Under the pieces are notes generated by a model that saw only the letters and a list, made by a program, of their open reading frames with translations, did not search any database and was not told the origin of the DNA. A DNA stretch of 22,993 nucleotides from a virus. Made by a program: the position numbers and the translations under genes. The stretch lies in IMG/VR virus record IMGVR_UViG_3300030090_000019, positions 7,005 to 29,997 of that record. One strand, 5' to 3'. Below are positions 2,423 to 21,866 of the stretch, one piece after another (the first letter of the stretch is position 1; every line of letters starts with the position of its first letter).

Positions 2423-5400
2423 TTAAACGATAGTAAGAGTTTCTCCTGACCCTACAGTAACAGTGACACCACTGTTTATTGTTATAGGACCAGCAGCCAT
2501 AGCGTTCTTGCCATTAGTTATAGTATAGTTTGAAGTTACAGTTTGGTCATTCTCGTAGAATACTTCATCAGATCCACCGCCTGTAGCACCAGCAGATATG
2601 CCTGTAAGGTTCGATCCATCTCCGTATAAAGTGTCAGCATAAAGATTTCTCCATCTTGTACCAGATAAACCTAAATCGTAAGTGCTGTCTGTTGCAGGGC
2701 GAAAATGACCATTATCGTCAATTCTTGATCTGTCTGTACCACTTTCTCTAAATATGATTCCACCAGAACCGCCAACAATGTATAAAGTACTTGAATGTTG
2801 TTGAATTTTACAGTGATTTCCTGTCCAATTTCCACTATGAAAAGCAATATCACTGTTAGCTTCTATGTGAGCAGCATAAGCTCCACCATTAAAACCAACA
2901 TCACCATTAAAAGTAATAGCTCCCGAAGCAGTATCAGTTGTATCTGACCTTAAGAAACTAGATCCATGTACACCATCAACTGTATCGGAATCTAATCCAC
3001 TTCCAGAGCCGTCATTATTTTGATGCCAAATTCTATATTTATTAGCACCCATTGACCAACCGCCAACCGCTATGTCGTTAATGTCCGCATCTAATCCAAA
3101 ATAAAGAGCAAAATCACTTCCAGAATGAAATGCCATAAACGCATCATTTCCAGCACCTGAGTTATATATTTCTATACCACCCTGAGAGCCAGTAGATGAG
3201 GCTATGGTATCTTCGTTGTCTGTAGCATTATTTTGAAATTGAATCCTATGTGTAGCAACATCATCAGCATTAGACCTTAATAATGAACTGTAATCAGAAG
3301 CCGTAGACAACGCTTTAACATAATTACCATCACCATTTATAGACATAGTGCCATCTACATTAAAACCACCATCTGCTCTCATTACTAACGGAGTATAAAC
3401 ACCATTAGAAAATTCTGAAGAGTTATTTAGTCTTAAATATCCATCATTGTAATCTGCTGATAATGCTGTTCTGCTATTAAACGATATACCTCTATTATCG
3501 CTTGTCGAGTTAGCAGAAAGATTGATTACATCAGTACTATTGGCACTAAATGTATATGTTCCAGACAATGTATCTGCTGCATCTGACCTTACAAAGCTAC
3601 CAGAACTTACTCCATCTAAAGTATCAGCGTCTAAACCTGACCCTGCACCATCAACAGTTTTTATAAGTGTTAGTATTTCAGATGCACTTTGGTCGGCTGT
3701 AGCTCCATTTTCTACATTTAACAAGGCTCTTGCAGCAGCAGCAGAATATGAACGGCCATAGGTGTCTGAGCCATTAGTACCTGTAAAATTAGCCATGCCA
3801 CTCGTGTTAGGAGAGTTTGAAAAAGTACCTGACATATTTAGGAAATTTCCAAATATGTAGCCATTACCCTGTCTAGCTACAATAGTGTTAGTGCTTGAAG
3901 ATGTTGATACGTTATAACCATCTACAGTATCTGCATCTAGTCCAGAACCAGAGCCGTCTACAGTTTTTAGTAATGTTAATATCTCACTTGCGGATTGGTC
4001 AGCAGTAGCCCCAGATTCTATACCTGAGAGTTTACTATTCATTGAAGCTACGTCAGCACCGTCTACTGTTCCTGATACTGTGATATTTCCTGTAATATCT
4101 ACATTTCCAAGTGATTTTATACCACCAGAACCTGCTTGTATTCCTTGATTATTTGAAAAAGCATAAGTATCTAAACTTTCTAATGCTGAACCTTGAACTG
4201 AATATCCAGAAATAGAAGCCTGGACAACAGGTGTTACAACAGTATGACTTGTCCAATTAGATTGATTTTGTATCTGTTTTATAGCAACTCTGTAAGTAGA
4301 GCTAACTGTTACATATACCTGTAATTTTTTATTTCCATAAGTAATATCACTATCTCTTAAAACTCTTACTCCTGTAATTCTATTTTGATGACCACCACAA
4401 TTTATAACAGTAAAAACACTATCATTATAAGATCGCAGCCAATCAATTCTTATAAAAGCGTGATCTCCACTATCTGAGTCACTAACAAAAATTTCACCAT
4501 GCCTTCTACCGCTTGTATTTTCTGCAACTGTAACCCAACCAGGACCAACTGTTGCTGACGCATTAGAAACTTCTCTATAAAAATCCGCAGAACTTGTACC
4601 ATCTAACAAATCAGCATCTAGGCCACTTCCAGTACCATCAACTGTTTTTATTAATGTAAGTAATGTAGAAGCCGATAATCTTGCTTGTGGAACTGTTCCA
4701 GAGTTTAAGTTTGAGGCGTTACCAGCAGTAAAACCACCAGATGTTCCTGTAGTATTTTGGTTAAGTGTTGGAACTTTTGATGCAACTATATTTCCATTGC
4801 CATCAATAACATAAGCTCCATCTACATTTACTCCACCATCTGCTCTTAAAACTCCAGCAGTATAAAGCTGACTTGGTGTATAAACTCCGTTAGAAAATTC
4901 ATTTCCATTATTAAGTCTTAACCAACCATCGTTATAATCTGCGGAGACTGCTGTTCTTCCGTTAAAAGCTATACCCCTATTATCATTAGTAGAGTTAGCA
5001 GAAAAGTTAATAACGTCAGTTCCATCTTGAGATAAAGTTATACTTCCACTCGTTGTATCGTTTGCGTCTGACCGCATAAAACTTGCTGAAGAAATGCCAT
5101 CTAGAGTGTCTGCATCAAGTCCACTACCTGCTCCATCTACAGTTTTGAGTAATGTGAGAATTTCTGAGGCTGTTTGGTCTGCAGTAGCATTGCTTTCTAT
5201 TCCGTCTAATTTTGTACCATCAGTAGCCAAGTCTCTGCCATCAACAGTTCCATCAACAGTTATATTTCCCGAAGCAAAAATATTTCTATATTTAAGACTT
5301 GAAGAACCAATATCAATATTTGTAACTCCGCTTGGAGGGGTCATGCTTCTAGTTGTTATATCTCCTGTAAAAGCTCCACCAGCCAAAGGCATTTTTGTAG

Positions 5401-6223
5401 CTATTGAGTTAGTAACTGTTGTTGAGAAGTTAGCATCATCTCCAAGTGCTGCTGCAAGTTCATTGAGTGTATTTAATGTGCTAGGGCTAGAGTCAACTAG
5501 GTTTGATATTGCTGTTGAGACAAATGCGGTTGTTGCAACTCTTGTTGTGTTATTTCCAGCCGATTGGGTCGTTGCTGTTACTCCGTTTGTCAATACACCA
5601 GAGCTAGAAGTTAAACCACCGAATAATGTATTTCTTGCAGCAATATCAACTCCATCAACTGTTCCTGATATTGTCATATTTCCTGTTGCTGTGATATTTC
5701 CATTATTCATATCTACTAAAAATCTATTAGCAGCATTAGTTATATCTCTAATCGCAAAAGAACCTTGACGATTTTGAAGTATAAAATCAGGGTTTGCATT
5801 AGTGTCACTAAAAATTATTCCAGGTTGTGAGTTTTCAATAGTAATTCCTGTGGTTGTGGTTAAATATCCATCAGTCGCAAATGTTGCATTACCACCAAAT
5901 GTTGCAGTACCAGTTGTAGCTATATTTTGCGATCCAAAGTCAGGACTAATCTTTGTACCAGCTATCGCTGCATCTGAAGCTACTTTTGCATTATTAATAA
6001 CCCCATTATCAATAGTCCATGTATCGCCACTATTGCTGACTGTTATATCTCCCTTGTCTCCATCATCAATACCGCCACCACCTGATATTTCTGCTACGTT
6101 TCCATTATCTTTTTTGGTAAATATTTTTCCTAAATCTGTTCTTATCGCTAATTCACCGACACTTAAATCACTAGCACTTGGATCGCTACCGCTTCCTCTC
6201 TTAAGTTTAATTGTGTTAGACAT
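2423..6223 (-). CDS. Large modular tail fibre
   Basis: A 1266-residue fibre. The N-terminus MSNTIKLKRGSGSDPSASDL followed by VGELA is a typical virion-attachment start in marine phage fibres and is shared in outline with the adjacent 493-residue fibre. The body is Ser/Thr/Gly/Asp/Asn-rich beta-repeat material with recurring KTVDGxGSGLDADxLDG units at about residues 350, 520, 742 and 845, plus a divergent one near 1071. Residues about 545-680 form a non-repetitive insert richer in Trp, His and Arg, a candidate receptor-binding domain. Near the C-terminus comes a STYDLGLSGTRWRNLYAD segment, then a tip ending TVGSGETLTIV that is shared with the fibre at 10412-11170. A consensus-like Shine-Dalgarno precedes the ATG. 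I see no S74 peptidase chaperone motif. The role is adsorption to the host surface. Confidence 0.85.
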   Translation of the reverse strand: MSNTIKLKRGSGSDPSASDLSVGELAIRTDLGKIFTKKDNGNVAEISGGGGIDDGDKGDITVSNSGDTWTIDNGVINNAKVASDAAIAGTKISPDFGSQNIATTGTATFGGNATFATDGYLTTTTGITIENSQPGIIFSDTNANPDFILQNRQGSFAIRDITNAANRFLVDMNNGNITATGNMTISGTVDGVDIAARNTLFGGLTSSSGVLTNGVTATTQSAGNNTTRVATTAFVSTAISNLVDSSPSTLNTLNELAAALGDDANFSTTVTNSIATKMPLAGGAFTGDITTRSMTPPSGVTNIDIGSSSLKYRNIFASGNITVDGTVDGRDLATDGTKLDGIESNATADQTASEILTLLKTVDGAGSGLDADTLDGISSASFMRSDANDTTSGSITLSQDGTDVINFSANSTNDNRGIAFNGRTAVSADYNDGWLRLNNGNEFSNGVYTPSQLYTAGVLRADGGVNVDGAYVIDGNGNIVASKVPTLNQNTTGTSGGFTAGNASNLNSGTVPQARLSASTLLTLIKTVDGTGSGLDADLLDGTSSADFYREVSNASATVGPGWVTVAENTSGRRHGEIFVSDSDSGDHAFIRIDWLRSYNDSVFTVINCGGHQNRITGVRVLRDSDITYGNKKLQVYVTVSSTYRVAIKQIQNQSNWTSHTVVTPVVQASISGYSVQGSALESLDTYAFSNNQGIQAGSGGIKSLGNVDITGNITVSGTVDGADVASMNSKLSGIESGATADQSASEILTLLKTVDGSGSGLDADTVDGYNVSTSSSTNTIVARQGNGYIFGNFLNMSGTFSNSPNTSGMANFTGTNGSDTYGRSYSAAAARALLNVENGATADQSASEILTLIKTVDGAGSGLDADTLDGVSSGSFVRSDAADTLSGTYTFSANSTDVINLSANSTSDNRGISFNSRTALSADYNDGYLRLNNSSEFSNGVYTPLVMRADGGFNVDGTMSINGDGNYVKALSTASDYSSLLRSNADDVATHRIQFQNNATDNEDTIASSTGSQGGIEIYNSGAGNDAFMAFHSGSDFALYFGLDADINDIAVGGWSMGANKYRIWHQNNDGSGSGLDSDTVDGVHGSSFLRSDTTDTASGAITFNGDVGFNGGAYAAHIEANSDIAFHSGNWTGNHCKIQQHSSTLYIVGGSGGIIFRESGTDRSRIDDNGHFRPATDSTYDLGLSGTRWRNLYADTLYGDGSNLTGISAGATGGGSDEVFYENDQTVTSNYTITNGKNAMAAGPITINSGVTVTVGSGETLTIV
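2965..5180 (-). repeat. Internal protein-level repeats of the large fibre
   Basis: The unit ILTLxKTVDGxGSGLDAD followed by xLDG occurs at about 5096-5175, 4600-4665, 3919-4000 and 3610-3690, with a shortened version near 2975-3012. Around the first and fourth copies the similarity extends over about 120 residues, including DNRGI, SADYNDG, LRLNN, EFSNGVYTP and RADGG. The DNA of these long copies is visibly similar but has many substitutions, so the duplication is old or is homogenised only slowly. Confidence 0.8.
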
Positions 6224-16479: not shown

Positions 16480-16841
16480 TATGCTGGCTCAAATACTTGT
16501 CTAAAAGTTGCTTGAATTGTAGCTCTATTTTTAAATGGTATCGACTTGCTCCATGACTCGCAAACAAATTTAAACTTAGTAGAATCTTCCCCAGGTAAGT
16601 AATCAATAGGAAGATCAAAACTATCATTATCGTTTGCTCTAGCATCTAGAAATGTTTCAATTTGATCTGCTTCTGTTTCCGATACGTTGTAAGTAAAGTT
16701 AAAAAGTTTTGGATTCTGATGCTGTGCAAGACCAAATAGTATGCGATGTTCATAACCATCAGCAAAGCGAATTGTTTTAGTTAATGGTGCAGATCTTTTT
16801 TGTTGTCCGTATGTGGGTTTTATTGAGGGAAACGTAGCCAT
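16479..16841 (-). CDS. M: Minor tail protein (lambda gpM-like)
   Basis: A 120-residue protein with the classical gpM pattern: SIKPTYGQQKRSAPLTKTIR, FADGYEHRILFGLAQHQNPK, FNFTYNVSETEADQIETFLD, then FDLPIDYLPGEDSTKFKFVC and a terminal RATIQATFRQVFEPA. gpM lies at the tail tip below the tape measure. It overlaps the tape measure stop by one base (TAATG) and L by one base. No unusual features. Confidence 0.88.
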   Translation of the reverse strand: MATFPSIKPTYGQQKRSAPLTKTIRFADGYEHRILFGLAQHQNPKLFNFTYNVSETEADQIETFLDARANDNDSFDLPIDYLPGEDSTKFKFVCESWSKSIPFKNRATIQATFRQVFEPA

Positions 16842-19309
16842 TATGCAAGTAATCCTCCTGGTCTTTTCTGTTGTAATATTTCAGATTGTACTGCAACTGA
16901 GATAAGACGGCCAAGTTCCCTACCCTGATCTTCGTCACCTTCTACATTTGTTCCAGAGGCATCTACATTTACCACGATATTTGTAGCACCTCCACCAATA
17001 CCAGCTAGATCATGGTTAGGAATTATGTTTCCTGATTGATTTGGAACAAAAAGTTCTGGTCCACGTTCTCCTACAATATACGGTCTTTTTCTTCCTACAG
17101 GACCACCATTAGCTGCGTACATAACAGTGCCTTGTATATCATTCATAGGTGTGGTACTGAAATTAAACATATTCCCAAACAGACCCAAAATACTTCTTTG
17201 GAGTTGTGTAGCTGCTAGTTGTGCAGCAGTGTCTATAAAGAAATCAGCTATCTTGTTAAGCATATTTCTGAACGCATCTTGCACAGTCATTGTTCCTCTT
17301 ACTACTCCCTTAAATGATTCAGCAAACGAATCTCCCATCACTTTTGATAGCTTGACTGACTGTTCTGTTATATCGTTAAGCTCTCTCATTTTCTTATTCA
17401 ATTCATTCATACGGCTGATTGCTGGATCAGCAGCGTTTAATCTGTTTAGTGTTATCTGTTCTTCTAAATCTTTCTGTAAATATAAGTTTTGTAAAGTTTG
17501 CTCTGCTCTTTCTAGTTCCGCTTTACTTCCTTTTTCTCTTACAGCTTCTACTTCAGCTATCTGTTTTTCTATTGCAAAGTCTAATTTTTTAAGTTTAGCT
17601 TTTTGCTCTAACACTATTAGTTCCTCTTCAGAACCCTCAAACCTGGCTTTTTCTAGTTCTATCTGTGCTCTGAGATCCATCTCAGTTTCCTTAAGTATTT
17701 TCTGCTGCAACTCAGCTAATTTGACAGTTGCATCAAAATTCTTTACCTGATCTTTTAATACTCCTAAATCTAACTCTCCTGCTGATATTTCTCCACCTAA
17801 TCTTCTAAATTCACTCATTATCGTTCCTAATTCTCCACTTGCTGCAAGCTCTCGTTGTTCCTCTTTAGTATCAAATCTTGCTCTTAATTCATTTCTCTTT
17901 CTTAGATTTTCCTGTAAGGAAGTTTCTAGATCGGTTATTTTCGCTATGGCATTTTCACGTTCAGTTATAGTCCTATCTATAGTGTCTGCTAAACTTTCAC
18001 CTTCTGCTGCTGTACCTCCTCCACCTAGTACAAAATTAAGCATTTTCATAAATCCAGTTAAAGGACCTGATGCTAATATTGCAAGTTCTGTTCCCAACTT
18101 AGTTGTTACTTTGGCAAACTCCTTAAATGCCTTGTTCATTTCTTCAAGACTATTTGCACCACCAGCACCAAACTGCGTACCAAATCTGGCTCTTGCAAAC
18201 TGTCCTGCTGACGCTGTAAGTCCTGCTGATTGAAGTATTTGTACAGAAGTAATAATATTTTTATCGAATTTAGATAGCGATTCAGTTAATTTATCTATGT
18301 TGTTCGCTGGATCGGCCAACGCACCACCTAATTCATTAATACCGTTAACTACGTTAGTTATAGTTTGAACGATAGCTGTACCGACAATACCTCCTGCAAA
18401 TCCACCCATCTGTCCACCTACAGCAGCACCGATTCCGCCGCCTAACGCACCACCGACAGCGGTTACTGGTCCTTGTCCAAATAGTAAAGGAAAACCACCA
18501 CTTATCAGTGCACTCTGGAAGATAGCACCGCCTCCACCTCTTCCACCTGTAGTAGGAGCATTGGCAGCAGCTATAGCTCTTGATCTTCTTCTATTTATTC
18601 TTTCCTGTTCTCGTAATATTGCTAATTTATTGTTTTCTTTTTTGATGCCGTTTGTAAGTTCTCGGTTTAATCTTTTTACTATTCCAAATTCTCTCCTTCT
18701 TTGTGCGTCTGTGAGTTTACCTAATTTATTCCTTAACTTTGAAATATCTACTCCTTTCAACTCCAGCATATTTAGGTCATGTGCAATTTTTAAACGAGTT
18801 GTCTGTTGTATAAATTTAGTATCGACATTCATAGCAACCTGACCAGCACCCTTTGTAGCTTGGTGAGGCCCCATTAAACCAGGGTGTGAAACCACAGTAG
18901 GACTAGCTATTCTAGATTTAACAGCTTGTTTATTTAAGGAGACTACTTTTTGCAGTCCTTTTATTTCATCGGCAACTAACTTATTTGAGGCTCTTGCGGT
19001 TTCTAATCTTCCTTTAGCTGTGTGTCTGGCTGCATTAGATAACTGTAATTTTTCTTTATCTACGTTTAAACCTTCTTTCTCTAATTTTCTTAACTGTTCG
19101 CCCAACCTTCTGGTTATTTTCATTGTGGCGAACTTTCTATCGTCTAAAGCAAGTTGCTGTTTTTTAAGCATTACTGCTTTAGATTCAATTCTTAATGGAG
19201 TATTGAGCTTTTTTCTAAGAACATTTACACGTTTTTCCAGCTTTCCAAGCTGATCTATCGCTGGTTTAGTATTTAGCTTTATATTTACGCTGTAATTCGA
19301 GGCAGCCAC
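16841..19309 (-). CDS. H: Tape measure protein (lambda gpH-like)
   Basis: An 822-residue protein with a GTG start, almost the same length as lambda gpH (853), so the tail is probably of similar length. Residues about 15-250 are basic and helical. Residues about 253-320 are a Gly/Ala-rich hydrophobic stretch (GGFPLLFGQGPVTAVGGALG and on), the usual membrane-inserting part. Coiled coils occupy about 450-640. Residues about 741-757 carry the VGERGPELFVPN motif diagnostic for the C-terminal domain of lambda-type tape measures, and the protein ends QQKRPGGLLA. It sets tail length and is ejected ahead of DNA. It lies 28 bases after the T-frame chaperone. Confidence 0.92.
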   Translation of the reverse strand: MAASNYSVNIKLNTKPAIDQLGKLEKRVNVLRKKLNTPLRIESKAVMLKKQQLALDDRKFATMKITRRLGEQLRKLEKEGLNVDKEKLQLSNAARHTAKGRLETARASNKLVADEIKGLQKVVSLNKQAVKSRIASPTVVSHPGLMGPHQATKGAGQVAMNVDTKFIQQTTRLKIAHDLNMLELKGVDISKLRNKLGKLTDAQRRREFGIVKRLNRELTNGIKKENNKLAILREQERINRRRSRAIAAANAPTTGGRGGGGAIFQSALISGGFPLLFGQGPVTAVGGALGGGIGAAVGGQMGGFAGGIVGTAIVQTITNVVNGINELGGALADPANNIDKLTESLSKFDKNIITSVQILQSAGLTASAGQFARARFGTQFGAGGANSLEEMNKAFKEFAKVTTKLGTELAILASGPLTGFMKMLNFVLGGGGTAAEGESLADTIDRTITERENAIAKITDLETSLQENLRKRNELRARFDTKEEQRELAASGELGTIMSEFRRLGGEISAGELDLGVLKDQVKNFDATVKLAELQQKILKETEMDLRAQIELEKARFEGSEEELIVLEQKAKLKKLDFAIEKQIAEVEAVREKGSKAELERAEQTLQNLYLQKDLEEQITLNRLNAADPAISRMNELNKKMRELNDITEQSVKLSKVMGDSFAESFKGVVRGTMTVQDAFRNMLNKIADFFIDTAAQLAATQLQRSILGLFGNMFNFSTTPMNDIQGTVMYAANGGPVGRKRPYIVGERGPELFVPNQSGNIIPNHDLAGIGGGATNIVVNVDASGTNVEGDEDQGRELGRLISVAVQSEILQQKRPGGLLA

Positions 19310-19337: not shown

Positions 19338-19514
19338 TTAGCGTATCTTACGATTCTGAGCTTGTCTTTTTGCTTTTTCGTGAGCCTTTTCTTCTCTTTC
19401 TGCCTGTATTCTGAAGTAAGCGTTCCAAGCAAACAGTTCTTGGGTAGATATTTTTTGTCGGAGTTCTTTATGGGTATATCCCAGTTTCTCAGCGATAAAA
19501 AACTGAAGAAACAT
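19338..19514 (-). CDS. Second tail assembly chaperone frame (gpT-like), likely reached by +1 frameshift
   Basis: A 58-residue frame with an ATG at 19514; it ends ELFAWNAYFRIQAEREEKAH and KAKRQAQNRKIR. The pattern of a Trp-x2-Tyr followed by a basic-acidic helix is typical of the T part of lambda-type G-GT chaperones. The frame is open upstream of its ATG to within the last codons of the G frame (AKLEKDNF joins it), and the ATG has only a weak Shine-Dalgarno, so it is probably made mainly as a G-T fusion. In lambda the GT protein links the tape measure to the tube subunit. Its position between G and the tape measure is exactly that of T. Confidence 0.75.
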   Translation of the reverse strand: MFLQFFIAEKLGYTHKELRQKISTQELFAWNAYFRIQAEREEKAHEKAKRQAQNRKIR

Positions 19515-19533
19515 AAAGTTATCTTTTTCTAGT

Positions 19534-19545
19534 TTAGCTTTTTAC
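19534..19545 (-). other. Candidate +1 frameshift site joining G and T frames
   Basis: On the minus strand the G frame ends GTA AAA AGC TAA (Val-Lys-Ser-stop). The T frame is +1 to it and opens only after a TAA that overlaps GTA, so any shift must occur on these few codons. The run of five A lets a lysine tRNA on AAA re-pair with AAA one base downstream, giving V-K then AKLEK. A -1 shift would hit a stop within four codons. Transcriptional slippage on the A5 run, or -2, would also connect the frames; +1 fits base pairing best. Confidence 0.6.
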
Positions 19546-19899
19546 GGCATCAGGGCTGACCTCCTCGCCCATGCTTTGCATCTTAGTCATTAGATCAAGT
19601 AAGACAGATAACGGAATCTCTCTTCTTAAAATTGGTATGTCTCCTGCGGTAAATAGTTTTGTGCCTGACTCATCTTCTGCTTTTGTAATGATAACCTGTA
19701 AAGCAAAGTCAAGGTTTCCTTCTTCCTGACCTTTGTTCATAGCCAATAGTGTATTGTTTATTGTGTCTCTGTCAGCTATCGTAAGGGGTGACCAAAACAC
19801 TTTTAAAATAAGTTCTTTTCCCTTAAAAATAGAGTAACTACTACGTTCTTCGATACTAAAGGCTTGCTTTAGTTTGTCGATTGCTCTTGTTGTTGGCAT
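19534..19899 (-). CDS. Tail assembly chaperone (gpG-like)
   Basis: A 121-residue protein: IDKLKQAFSIEERSSYSIFK, VFWSPLTIADRDTINNTLLA, NLDFALQVIITKAEDESGTK, LFTAGDIPILRREIPLSVLL, DLMTKMQSMG. The arrangement (WxPLTxxDRD, a helical core, a KAEDESGxKLF segment) and the place just before the tape measure identify it as the first of the two tail chaperones that hold the tape measure soluble during tail assembly. The last codons carry the candidate frameshift to the T frame, so an extended G-T form is expected. The leader is AT-rich with no clear Shine-Dalgarno. Confidence 0.82.
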   Translation of the reverse strand: MPTTRAIDKLKQAFSIEERSSYSIFKGKELILKVFWSPLTIADRDTINNTLLAMNKGQEEGNLDFALQVIITKAEDESGTKLFTAGDIPILRREIPLSVLLDLMTKMQSMGEEVSPDAVKS

Positions 19900-19935: not shown

Positions 19936-20532
19936 CTAATAATCAGCATCAAAACTTATATTCTTAGCTTTAAATGTTTCAGCCAGTGCTAATGCAATAG
20001 CATCATTATACTGCTGATTTCCCATATAAATTTTGTACCAATCAGGATTTTTACTTGGTGGGGTTATTTCATCAACTATCTGTTCATGCTCAGAATAAGT
20101 TACTCCATTTGGCTCCCCCACTGGTGCAGTAGCCCCTGGATTGTTTACAGCAAAACCAGCATATTCAGCTTCGTTACCTACATACATATCTTTTTCTAGT
20201 GGAATTTTTTTCGGTCTTTTTCTTTTCGGAAGTTTACGATTTTTTCTTATCTGATCGTACACACTACCTGAATATTCGGGATCAGCCATTACTTCAAGCA
20301 ATGAAGCATCGTACCCTTCTATTTTACCTTCATCTATTTTTTGTCTTTTCTTAGATTTTACTACTGGTTCTACTGGAGTTTCACTTATTTTCCAACTTGT
20401 AGCAAAATGTCCTGTCCACCACGGACCAGCAGCCTGTAAATCCTGTACCATTGCCGAAGCAACTTTACCTCTAAGTCTTATCATGTCCTGCTCTAGATCT
20501 TTAGAAAGCTGTGAAATGTCTTTATTAGGCAT
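19936..20532 (-). CDS. Neck/minor tail protein, HK97 gp10 / lambda gpZ-like
   Basis: A 198-residue protein: SKDLEQDMIRLRGKVASAMV, AAGPWWTGHFATSWKIS (the WTGxxxxSW box of the gp10/Z type), a Lys/Arg-rich loop at about 75-115 (RKNRKLPKRKRPKK), then NEAEYAGFAVNNPG and a C-terminal helix. Such proteins join tail and head. It overlaps the previous gene by 8 bases. The position between the tail terminator-like gene and G is where the major tail tube gene would usually follow, but the next gene, 36 bases on, is the chaperone. Confidence 0.78.
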   Translation of the reverse strand: MPNKDISQLSKDLEQDMIRLRGKVASAMVQDLQAAGPWWTGHFATSWKISETPVEPVVKSKKRQKIDEGKIEGYDASLLEVMADPEYSGSVYDQIRKNRKLPKRKRPKKIPLEKDMYVGNEAEYAGFAVNNPGATAPVGEPNGVTYSEHEQIVDEITPPSKNPDWYKIYMGNQQYNDAIALALAETFKAKNISFDADY

Positions 20533-20953
20533 TGGCGGTAAAACTGCAACTGACTACAGACATGAAATGACTTTCCCTTTCCGTGCTAACAGATGTAGGA
20601 CCAGCTATCTGTGAAACACGGGGAGCTACCGAAAAAGTATCGGTATATGTTGAAGAATTTACTGAGGTCAATCCATCAATTATTGATTCTGCTATTTTAG
20701 CTGCTGCTCCTGTTCCTTTATTCTTTGGTGTCATAACACCGCAAGTAATTGTTCCTGCATAATAATCTTGGGCTGCTCCCTGAGTTTGGTTAGTTGATTG
20801 CGTAAAATCCAGACTAACCATTACATATTTCTTTCGTACTCCTGGTTGATTAAAAGGAGTATTATCGAACACTACAATAACTGTAGGATCAACTTCATTA
20901 ACTTTGTCCTGTATTGCAGTTTCAAAAGCTGCTCGTGTGTTTACTAAGCTCAT
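20525..20953 (-). CDS. Tail terminator-like protein (lambda gpU type)
   Basis: A 142-residue protein: TRAAFETAIQDKVNEVDPTV, IVVFDNTPFNQPG, KYVMVSLDFTQSTNQTQGAA, then YAGTITCGVMTPKNKGTGAA, and a C-terminal beta strand SHFMSVVSCSFTANA. The order of helix, 'FDNxPFxxP', strand, 'G.ITxxVxTPxxxGxGAA' helix and closing strand is that of phage tail terminators. These form the ring that stops tube growth and joins head and tail. It overlaps its neighbours by one base and by 8 bases. Confidence 0.75.
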   Translation of the reverse strand: MSLVNTRAAFETAIQDKVNEVDPTVIVVFDNTPFNQPGVRKKYVMVSLDFTQSTNQTQGAAQDYYAGTITCGVMTPKNKGTGAAAKIAESIIDGLTSVNSSTYTDTFSVAPRVSQIAGPTSVSTERESHFMSVVSCSFTANA

Positions 20954-21336
20954 TAGAAAATTACATCAATACGGAACAGGTATTCCTGTCCACCTTTTAA
21001 TGTGCGTATATCTGTTATCTTAGCTCCTCTTGTTGATCCAGAAAATGTAAGAGTTATCTCATCTTGAAGTAGAGGTTGATTGTCACCTATCAAGTCTGGA
21101 GTTATGTAGAGTCTCGCAACATTCTCCTGAAACCCAGATTCTTCAGTAGATTGTACAAACTCGATAGGTACTTTAATTGTATAGTTTGTGTCTACTGTTA
21201 TATACTCTCCCTTTTTAGCGTTATAGCTGGATACACCTTTGCGTGTGTAAACAATGGAGGTGTCTAATGAGATCCCAAGTTGAGACACTACTTGTTTTGC
21301 GATCTTTTTAAATGCTGCGTCTAACTGTCCTGCCAT
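20953..21336 (-). CDS. Head closure / head-tail adaptor protein
   Basis: A 127-residue protein: AAFKKIAKQVVSQLGISLDT, SIVYTRKGVSSYNAKKGEYI, then IKVPIEFVQSTEESGFQENV and a beta-rich end GQEYLFRIDVIF. An N-terminal helix followed by a small beta barrel with a loop is the layout of SPP1 gp16 / lambda gpFII-type head closure proteins. The start overlaps the stop of the connector gene by one base. Assignment rests on pattern and position. Confidence 0.65.
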   Translation of the reverse strand: MAGQLDAAFKKIAKQVVSQLGISLDTSIVYTRKGVSSYNAKKGEYITVDTNYTIKVPIEFVQSTEESGFQENVARLYITPDLIGDNQPLLQDEITLTFSGSTRGAKITDIRTLKGGQEYLFRIDVIF

Positions 21337-21866
21337 CAGCCTCTAACTACCCTCATTTGGAAAGACCCTGCTCCCCCAAGTATATATGCACCCAGATAAC
21401 TTTGTAGCCAAGGGTAAACATCTAAAATATTATTTATTGATCCTGTTCCCTGGCTATCAGTATTGTATTTAACTTCAATATCTCCTAGTTTTACTTCAGA
21501 AAAGTTGCCATCTGTTCCAGTAGTACCTGTGATAGCACCAGTATCATTTGCTAAAGCCCTAGCTAATTCATATTGTGCATATTTGATATTTAAAGGAATT
21601 GTACTGCAAGCTAGTTCTACACCGTCTACTTGATAATTATTTCTAGGAAACTTGAGTGCCTGACCGTCATCGCATCTATCTCCGTAGAATACGAAACTGT
21701 CGATCCATCTAGTAGCAGATATTAATGCTCTGTTCTTTTGATCGTCTGTTTTATTTGTCCAGGTTGAAGAGTCTGGTACTGTCTCGAAATAAGTGTTGGC
21801 TTCTGTAAGCGTGACATAGCTGTTAGCGTTAGCGTCTTTTACAGTTGCATTTATGGTGGCTGCCAC
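21336..21866 (-). CDS. Head-tail connector protein, DnaT-like family
   Basis: A 176-residue protein: NSYVTLTEANTYFETVPDSS, TWTNKTDDQKNRALISATRW, IDSFVFYGDRCDDG, LKFPRNNYQVDGVE, IPLNIKYAQYELARALAND. The W..K..D.K..ALI.ATR.ID core followed by PRN and a helix is widespread in phage head-tail connector proteins, which databases often call 'DnaT-like ssDNA binding'. That name is probably misleading: the place after the capsid gene indicates the first connector ring. It is the first gene after the capsid terminator and may have its own promoter. Confidence 0.75.
   Translation of the reverse strand: MAATINATVKDANANSYVTLTEANTYFETVPDSSTWTNKTDDQKNRALISATRWIDSFVFYGDRCDDGQALKFPRNNYQVDGVELACSTIPLNIKYAQYELARALANDTGAITGTTGTDGNFSEVKLGDIEVKYNTDSQGTGSINNILDVYPWLQSYLGAYILGGAGSFQMRVVRG

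Follow-up and report, generated by a model that had tools for sequence, protein, structure and literature searches.

Tail module and overlapping frames

The window analyzed here (the whole stretch of 22,993 nucleotides) is part of a 29,997-base record of an uncultured aquatic virus, and on its minus strand PHROG searches identify a tail module comprising an adaptor, a terminator, G, T, a tape measure gene and lambda-like L and K proteins (Table 1). G and T occupy two overlapping frames immediately upstream of the tape measure gene, which is the layout of a G/GT cassette. G matches PHROG 344 (tail assembly chaperone, E 8.5e-4) and PHROG 20784 (E 1.4e-12), and the best PDB match of its AlphaFold model (pLDDT 79) is the HK97 tail assembly chaperone 2OB9 (probability 1.00, E 6e-3, with a moderate TM score of about 0.5). 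The PHROG profiles matched by T are those of tail protein or tail assembly chaperone, and over 43 aa it shares 42% identity with T of cyanophage KBS-S-2A. A Pfam search with window G and T gave nothing above the cut-off, and Rfam and tRNA scans across the window gave no matches. The assignment of the pair as G and GT, proposed in a preliminary description, is supported by this comparison. Elsewhere in the window, positions 2423-6223 (minus strand) encode a protein of 1266 aa, probably a tail fibre, which contains degenerate repeats of the ILTLLKTVDGAGSGLDADTLDG type.

Table 1. Features of the tail chaperone locus, in window coordinates
Feature	Position	Strand	Basis or remark
Head-tail adaptor	21336-21866	-	PHROG profile search
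Tail terminator	20525-20953	-	PHROG profile search
G, tail assembly chaperone, 121 aa	19534..19899	-	ORF; PHROG; fold; stop TAA 19536-19534
Upstream element GGCGAGGAGGTCAGCCCTGATGCC	19546..19569	-	Potential hairpin ending one codon before the P site; synonymously frozen codons
Shine-Dalgarno-like stretch GAGGAGGT	19559..19566	-	Inside the hairpin; ends 17 nt before the P-site codon
GTA, E-site codon at the shift	19543..19545	-	Invariant in clade A, also at synonymous positions; replaced by others in clade D
Shift site AAA AGC	19537..19542	-	P-site AAA 19542-19540 to AAA 19541-19539; AGC to GCT
T, +1-frame extension of G	19338..19541	-	Open from TAA 19544-19542; PHROG; variation pattern
Tape measure protein	16841..19309	-	PHROG 1538 tail length tape measure protein, E 1.7e-14; directly downstream of T

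The 3' end of G reads GAT GCC GTA AAA AGC TAA. Relative to G the T frame is +1, or equivalently -2, and begins AAA GCT AAA CTA GAA...; because it is bounded on the left by a TAA that overlaps the GTA and AAA codons of G, the frame change must fall at AAA, or at AGC just before the stop. The earlier placement of the shift within GTA AAA AGC, after that TAA, is therefore borne out by the reading frames of the window, as is the early stop predicted for a -1 shift: the -1 frame at the junction, AAG CTA AAC TAG, is closed 5 nt past the G stop. No canonical -1 arrangement of the type X_XXY_YYZ accounts for T, the -1 frame closing after the G stop and A_AAA_AAN being found in none of 262 +1 loci. The predicted G-T fusion is 186 aa long, with 66 residues added after K120 of G and a junction ...DAVK-AKLEKDN...; trypsin is expected to cleave on either side of the predicted junction V-K-A-K-L.

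Conservation of the site and of its upstream context

Homologous loci were collected from viral contigs scanned with seven G proteins, from phage records and from one genome collection. This gave 461 loci with a readable G, then 80 more from the last scan, and de-duplication left 265 distinct +1 sites, which are related within clades, so that counts of them are not independent. Phage S-2L, in whose GC-rich gene both frames are open, was excluded from the counts. The 80 contigs closest to the window all have the same +1 relation, with the end of T in a fixed relation to the site, and T lies in the +1 frame at all 265 distinct sites; the relation is thus neither chance nor a sequencing indel, and the original reading of T as +1 (or -2) to G, not -1, holds throughout.

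The sequence AAA AGN is present at every one of the 265 sites (AGC in 245, AGT in 17, AGG in 2 and AGA in 1). The lysine codon is AAA and never AAG, though lysine codons vary elsewhere, and the AG that opens the waiting codon is no less invariant than AAA. Four clades are distinguished by what precedes this core: GTA AAA AGY in clade A, the group of the window; TTR AAA AGN in clade B, which contains Marine virus AG-345-A17 and a contig of the Prochlorococcus single cell AG-418-M08; ATG AAA AGY in clade C, relatives of KBS-S-2A at about 70%; and many different codons before AAA AGN in the more distant clade D. In its capsid and K proteins the window shares 74-77% identity with AG-345-A17, so that A and B represent close kinds of phage. 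NTR was considered as a required E-site codon and rejected, as many members of clade D lack it; a T-frame stop immediately ahead of AAA, considered as part of the signal, holds in clades A-C and is likewise missing in many members of clade D.

The invariant core is AAA AGN and not a run of five As, since other clades often have four As only. AAA_A, which allows the P-site tRNA to re-pair one base forward, is found in all distinct +1 sites; the slip from AAA to AAA needs only four As, with perfect pairing in every sequence. The proposal of a +1 slip by a lysine tRNA on an A5 run consequently stands as to the slip on AAA, which the comparison supports, and falls as to the A5 run, A4 being sufficient. 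Across the +1 homologues the G stop lies 0-7 codons beyond the site (1-7 codons in clades C and D, where the intervening codons vary and AAA AGN remains constant). The codon after AGN is a sense codon in 152 of 265 sites and a stop in the other 113, and a stop codon is therefore not required.

Some loci deserve mention for their setting. The clade D chaperones (loci L467-L546) lie on contigs of up to 98 kb, the cultured relatives having genomes of 30-40 kb. Two small contigs binned to a Maricaulis MAG (L247, L248) encode G proteins 94-97% identical to window G and may be misbinned virus contigs. The record of cyanophage MED4-117 (L085, L253) contains G twice, in slightly different versions that lie close to its two ends.

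Upstream of the site the clades differ. In clade A the codons GGC GAG GAG GNN AGC CCY GAT GCC, and in clade B the codons GAG GCT AAA GCC, are almost frozen at synonymous positions; in clade C synonymous freezing is restricted to AAA AGC. In clades A and B an upstream hairpin exceeds all of 100 synonymous shuffles in stability, with no excess over such shuffles in clade C. Pairing with the anti-Shine-Dalgarno sequence averages -12.0 in clade A (synonymous shuffles, -7.5 ± 0.3), at the same place in 53 of 53 sequences, and -11.1 in clade B (synonymous null, -7.2 ± 0.2), where the stretch survives amino-acid changes (AAG GAG, AGA GGA, AGG GGG) and lies 23 nt from the site, compared with 17 nt in clade A; no such pairing above the synonymous null is seen in clades C and D or in the -1 groups. 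No upstream element beyond expectation is thus found in the freshwater clades C and D, and the stimulator is not universal. The hairpin and the Shine-Dalgarno-like stretch of clade A overlap, so that their roles are inseparable from sequence. On 70S ribosomes, duplexes with Shine-Dalgarno sequences, or hairpins, adjacent to the E site promote +1 shifting and weaken -1 shifting (PMC6321510), and by analogy the clade A hairpin, the Shine-Dalgarno-like duplex or both probably raise the shift rate. No consensus structure was found 3' of the site in clades A, B and C; a downstream fold appears in clade D in a set of 5 sequences only and is not used here. At window positions 19542-19565 (minus strand) AGGAGG is followed after nine bases by AUG CCG UAA in the T frame, an arrangement that resembles the start signal of a two-codon ORF whose end lies immediately ahead of the slip. 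Its codons are nearly invariant in clade A (77 sequences) and absent from clades B-D, and it was rejected as a shared signal.

Readings of the frame change

Taken together, the gene pair is very probably a G/GT tail-chaperone cassette that belongs to a siphovirus tail of the lambda type and depends on +1 programmed ribosomal frameshifting for its expression. In the proposed mechanism most ribosomes would terminate after AGC and yield G. With AAA in the P site and AGC, the rarer serine codon, waiting in the A site, peptidyl-tRNA-Lys would occasionally move forward by one base to the overlapping AAA triplet; GCT, a common alanine codon, would then occupy the A site, and reading would continue into T to give the fusion, presumably at low frequency. 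Codon use in the window genes is 9 per 1000 for AGC, 26 for AGT and 41 for GCT, and the clade A site prefers AGC over AGT by 71 to 6, AGC being three times rarer in window genes; AGC may be the slow waiting codon. If the parallel with lambda holds, G would be the partner of the tape measure protein, and the major tail protein would be recruited by the T portion of the fusion, the two products acting in tail assembly.

A -2 shift at the same place, in which tRNA-Lys moves back two bases and an extra lysine is inserted (VKKAK), has a frame relation identical to that of +1, so that sequence alone cannot separate the two; such a shift is known for Mu (PMC5009743), and Shine-Dalgarno-like stretches as far upstream as these would be expected to pull backward. 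A two-base backward move, however, would leave tRNA-Lys paired to UAA or UGA in clades A-C and to assorted unrelated triplets in clade D, positions that show no conservation; the AAA reached by a +1 slip, by contrast, is perfect in all sequences. The -2 shift is for this reason considered unlikely, and the direction is taken to be +1. The Glu-C junction peptide predicted for -2 is VSPDAVKKAKLE, and that for +1 is VSPDAVKAKLE.

More doubtful still is a stop-dependent +1 shift on AGC UAA, of the type found in prfB and in the tube genes of SPP1 and Listeria phages, with tRNA-Ser slipping to GCU while UAA waits. The G stop does follow AGC directly in the window, as it does in the 113 sites noted above, but GCU offers tRNA-Ser only poor pairing, this reading gives no account of the invariant AAA, and the sense codon found after AGN at the majority of sites rules out such a slip as the general mechanism.

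Separate synthesis of T from a start of its own is highly improbable. T is under coding constraint in its frame: heterozygosity at T codon positions 1, 2 and 3 in clade A is 0.18, 0.10 and 0.38, and in all four clades T varies mostly at T-frame third codon positions. An in-frame ATG does occur in the window at 19514, 9 codons into T, but just 16 of the 77 clade A sequences share it, and the conservation of T extends upstream of this ATG as far as the shift site. No conserved start codon for T was found across the four clades, and a possible start usually does not occur until far into T (in clade A mostly at codon 30-31, the first ATG, GTG or TTG falling at codon 30 in 51 of 77 sequences); the strong independent start that would have argued against a shift is thus nowhere conserved. 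RNA polymerase slippage or a sequencing indel, to which the A5 run at the junction might point, can practically be dismissed, as the relation recurs in hundreds of independently assembled contigs and as many sites have A4 only, under the An, n > 7, cited for transcriptional realignment (PMC3711429).

T is without annotation in S-2L, P-HS2, KBS-S-2A, HTVC202P and HTVC026P (loci L083, L084, L250-L252), and the sole annotation at its position in S-H1 (L082) is a short hypothetical protein. T therefore goes unannotated in these aquatic phages, and tools restricted to -1 heptamers will keep missing it.

Sister genes in the -1 frame and known systems

Homologues with a -1 heptamer, which the preliminary description had named as potential counter-evidence, do exist. 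T lies in the -1 frame in Synechococcus phage S-H1, cyanophage KBS-S-2A, pelagiphages HTVC202P and HTVC026P and Roseobacter phage CRP-823, and A_AAA_AAC or A_AAA_AAA is present in 186 of 190 such loci, AAA_AGN in none of the 190. These genes do not refute the +1 reading, because their T is in the -1 frame too; the lineages have switched. In KBS-S-2A the site is GAC GTA AAA AAC TAA and the direction -1; in clade C it is GAC ATG AAA AGC and the direction +1, with G about 72% identical. A tree of 69 G proteins, from which the last eight residues were removed, has few columns and several long branches; on it the direction has to change at least four times, and well-supported branches require two of these changes, with number and order uncertain. 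As read from these sequences, a switch of direction goes with a switch of site, and this has happened at least twice on the G tree. The -1 site itself also changes within the family, since a relative of KBS-S-2A (L286) has T in the -1 frame at G_GGA_AAG, a heptamer of the lambda type. Nearly identical sites with opposite directions in sister genes offer a natural experiment on what sets the direction of a slip.

To our knowledge few natural +1 sites are known in bacteria and phages, and the best-described ones depend on a stop codon; the minimal +1 site kept in 265 distinct sequences adds to these few. No report of the AAA AGC or AAA_AGN shift site, of its stop independence or of the matched switch with A_AAA_AAC turned up in the literature searched, which lay outside most subscription journals and the 2004 survey, and their novelty is accordingly provisional.

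The kind of system is already known, since a review reports -1, -2 or +1 shifts for the G/T pair in different tailed phages (PMC5009743). Lambda G/GT and the cassettes of S-H1, KBS-S-2A, HTVC202P, HTVC026P and CRP-823 comprise the same pair, placed before the tape measure gene and fused near the end of G, and in the latter five G is homologous to window G or to G of its +1 relatives; in all of these T is in the -1 frame, nearly always at A_AAA_AAC, whereas the window uses +1 at AAA_AGC. In the Mu tail chaperone T is reached in the +1 frame as in the window, but by a -2 shift (PMC5009743), and the haloarchaeal virus HSTV-2 is likely +1, like the window (PMC5009743). The tsh genes of Listeria phages PSA, A118 and A500 and SPP1 gp17.1 (CCC_UGA, CCC_UAA) likewise show +1 shifts in phage tail genes; unlike the window, they involve the tail tube gene, a proline codon and an A site occupied by a stop codon, and in SPP1 it is the tube protein gp17.1 that is +1, the chaperone gp17.5 being a putative -1 case. 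The +1 motif 'four' of PRFect (PMC10885494) is a generic search pattern rather than a described site; the window fits it, with AAA_A and with a +1 codon, GCT, more frequent than the zero-frame AGC.

In prfB (CUU_UGA) the P-site tRNA also slips one base forward and a Shine-Dalgarno-like sequence lies upstream, at a short spacing unlike that in clades A and B. Yeast Ty1 and Ty3 (Ty3: GCG_AGU_U) share with the window a slow AGN sense codon in the A site; they differ in the eukaryotic ribosome and in their P-site codons, and Ty3 shifts without re-pairing. On balance, and by a modest margin over the contrary view, AAA_AGN would be a general bacterial +1 site acting on a waiting sense codon and free of a stop, the counterpart of the yeast Ty AGN, which has replaced the -1 site A_AAA_AAC, or been replaced by it, at least twice, and to which some clades have added a forward-biasing upstream hairpin or Shine-Dalgarno duplex.
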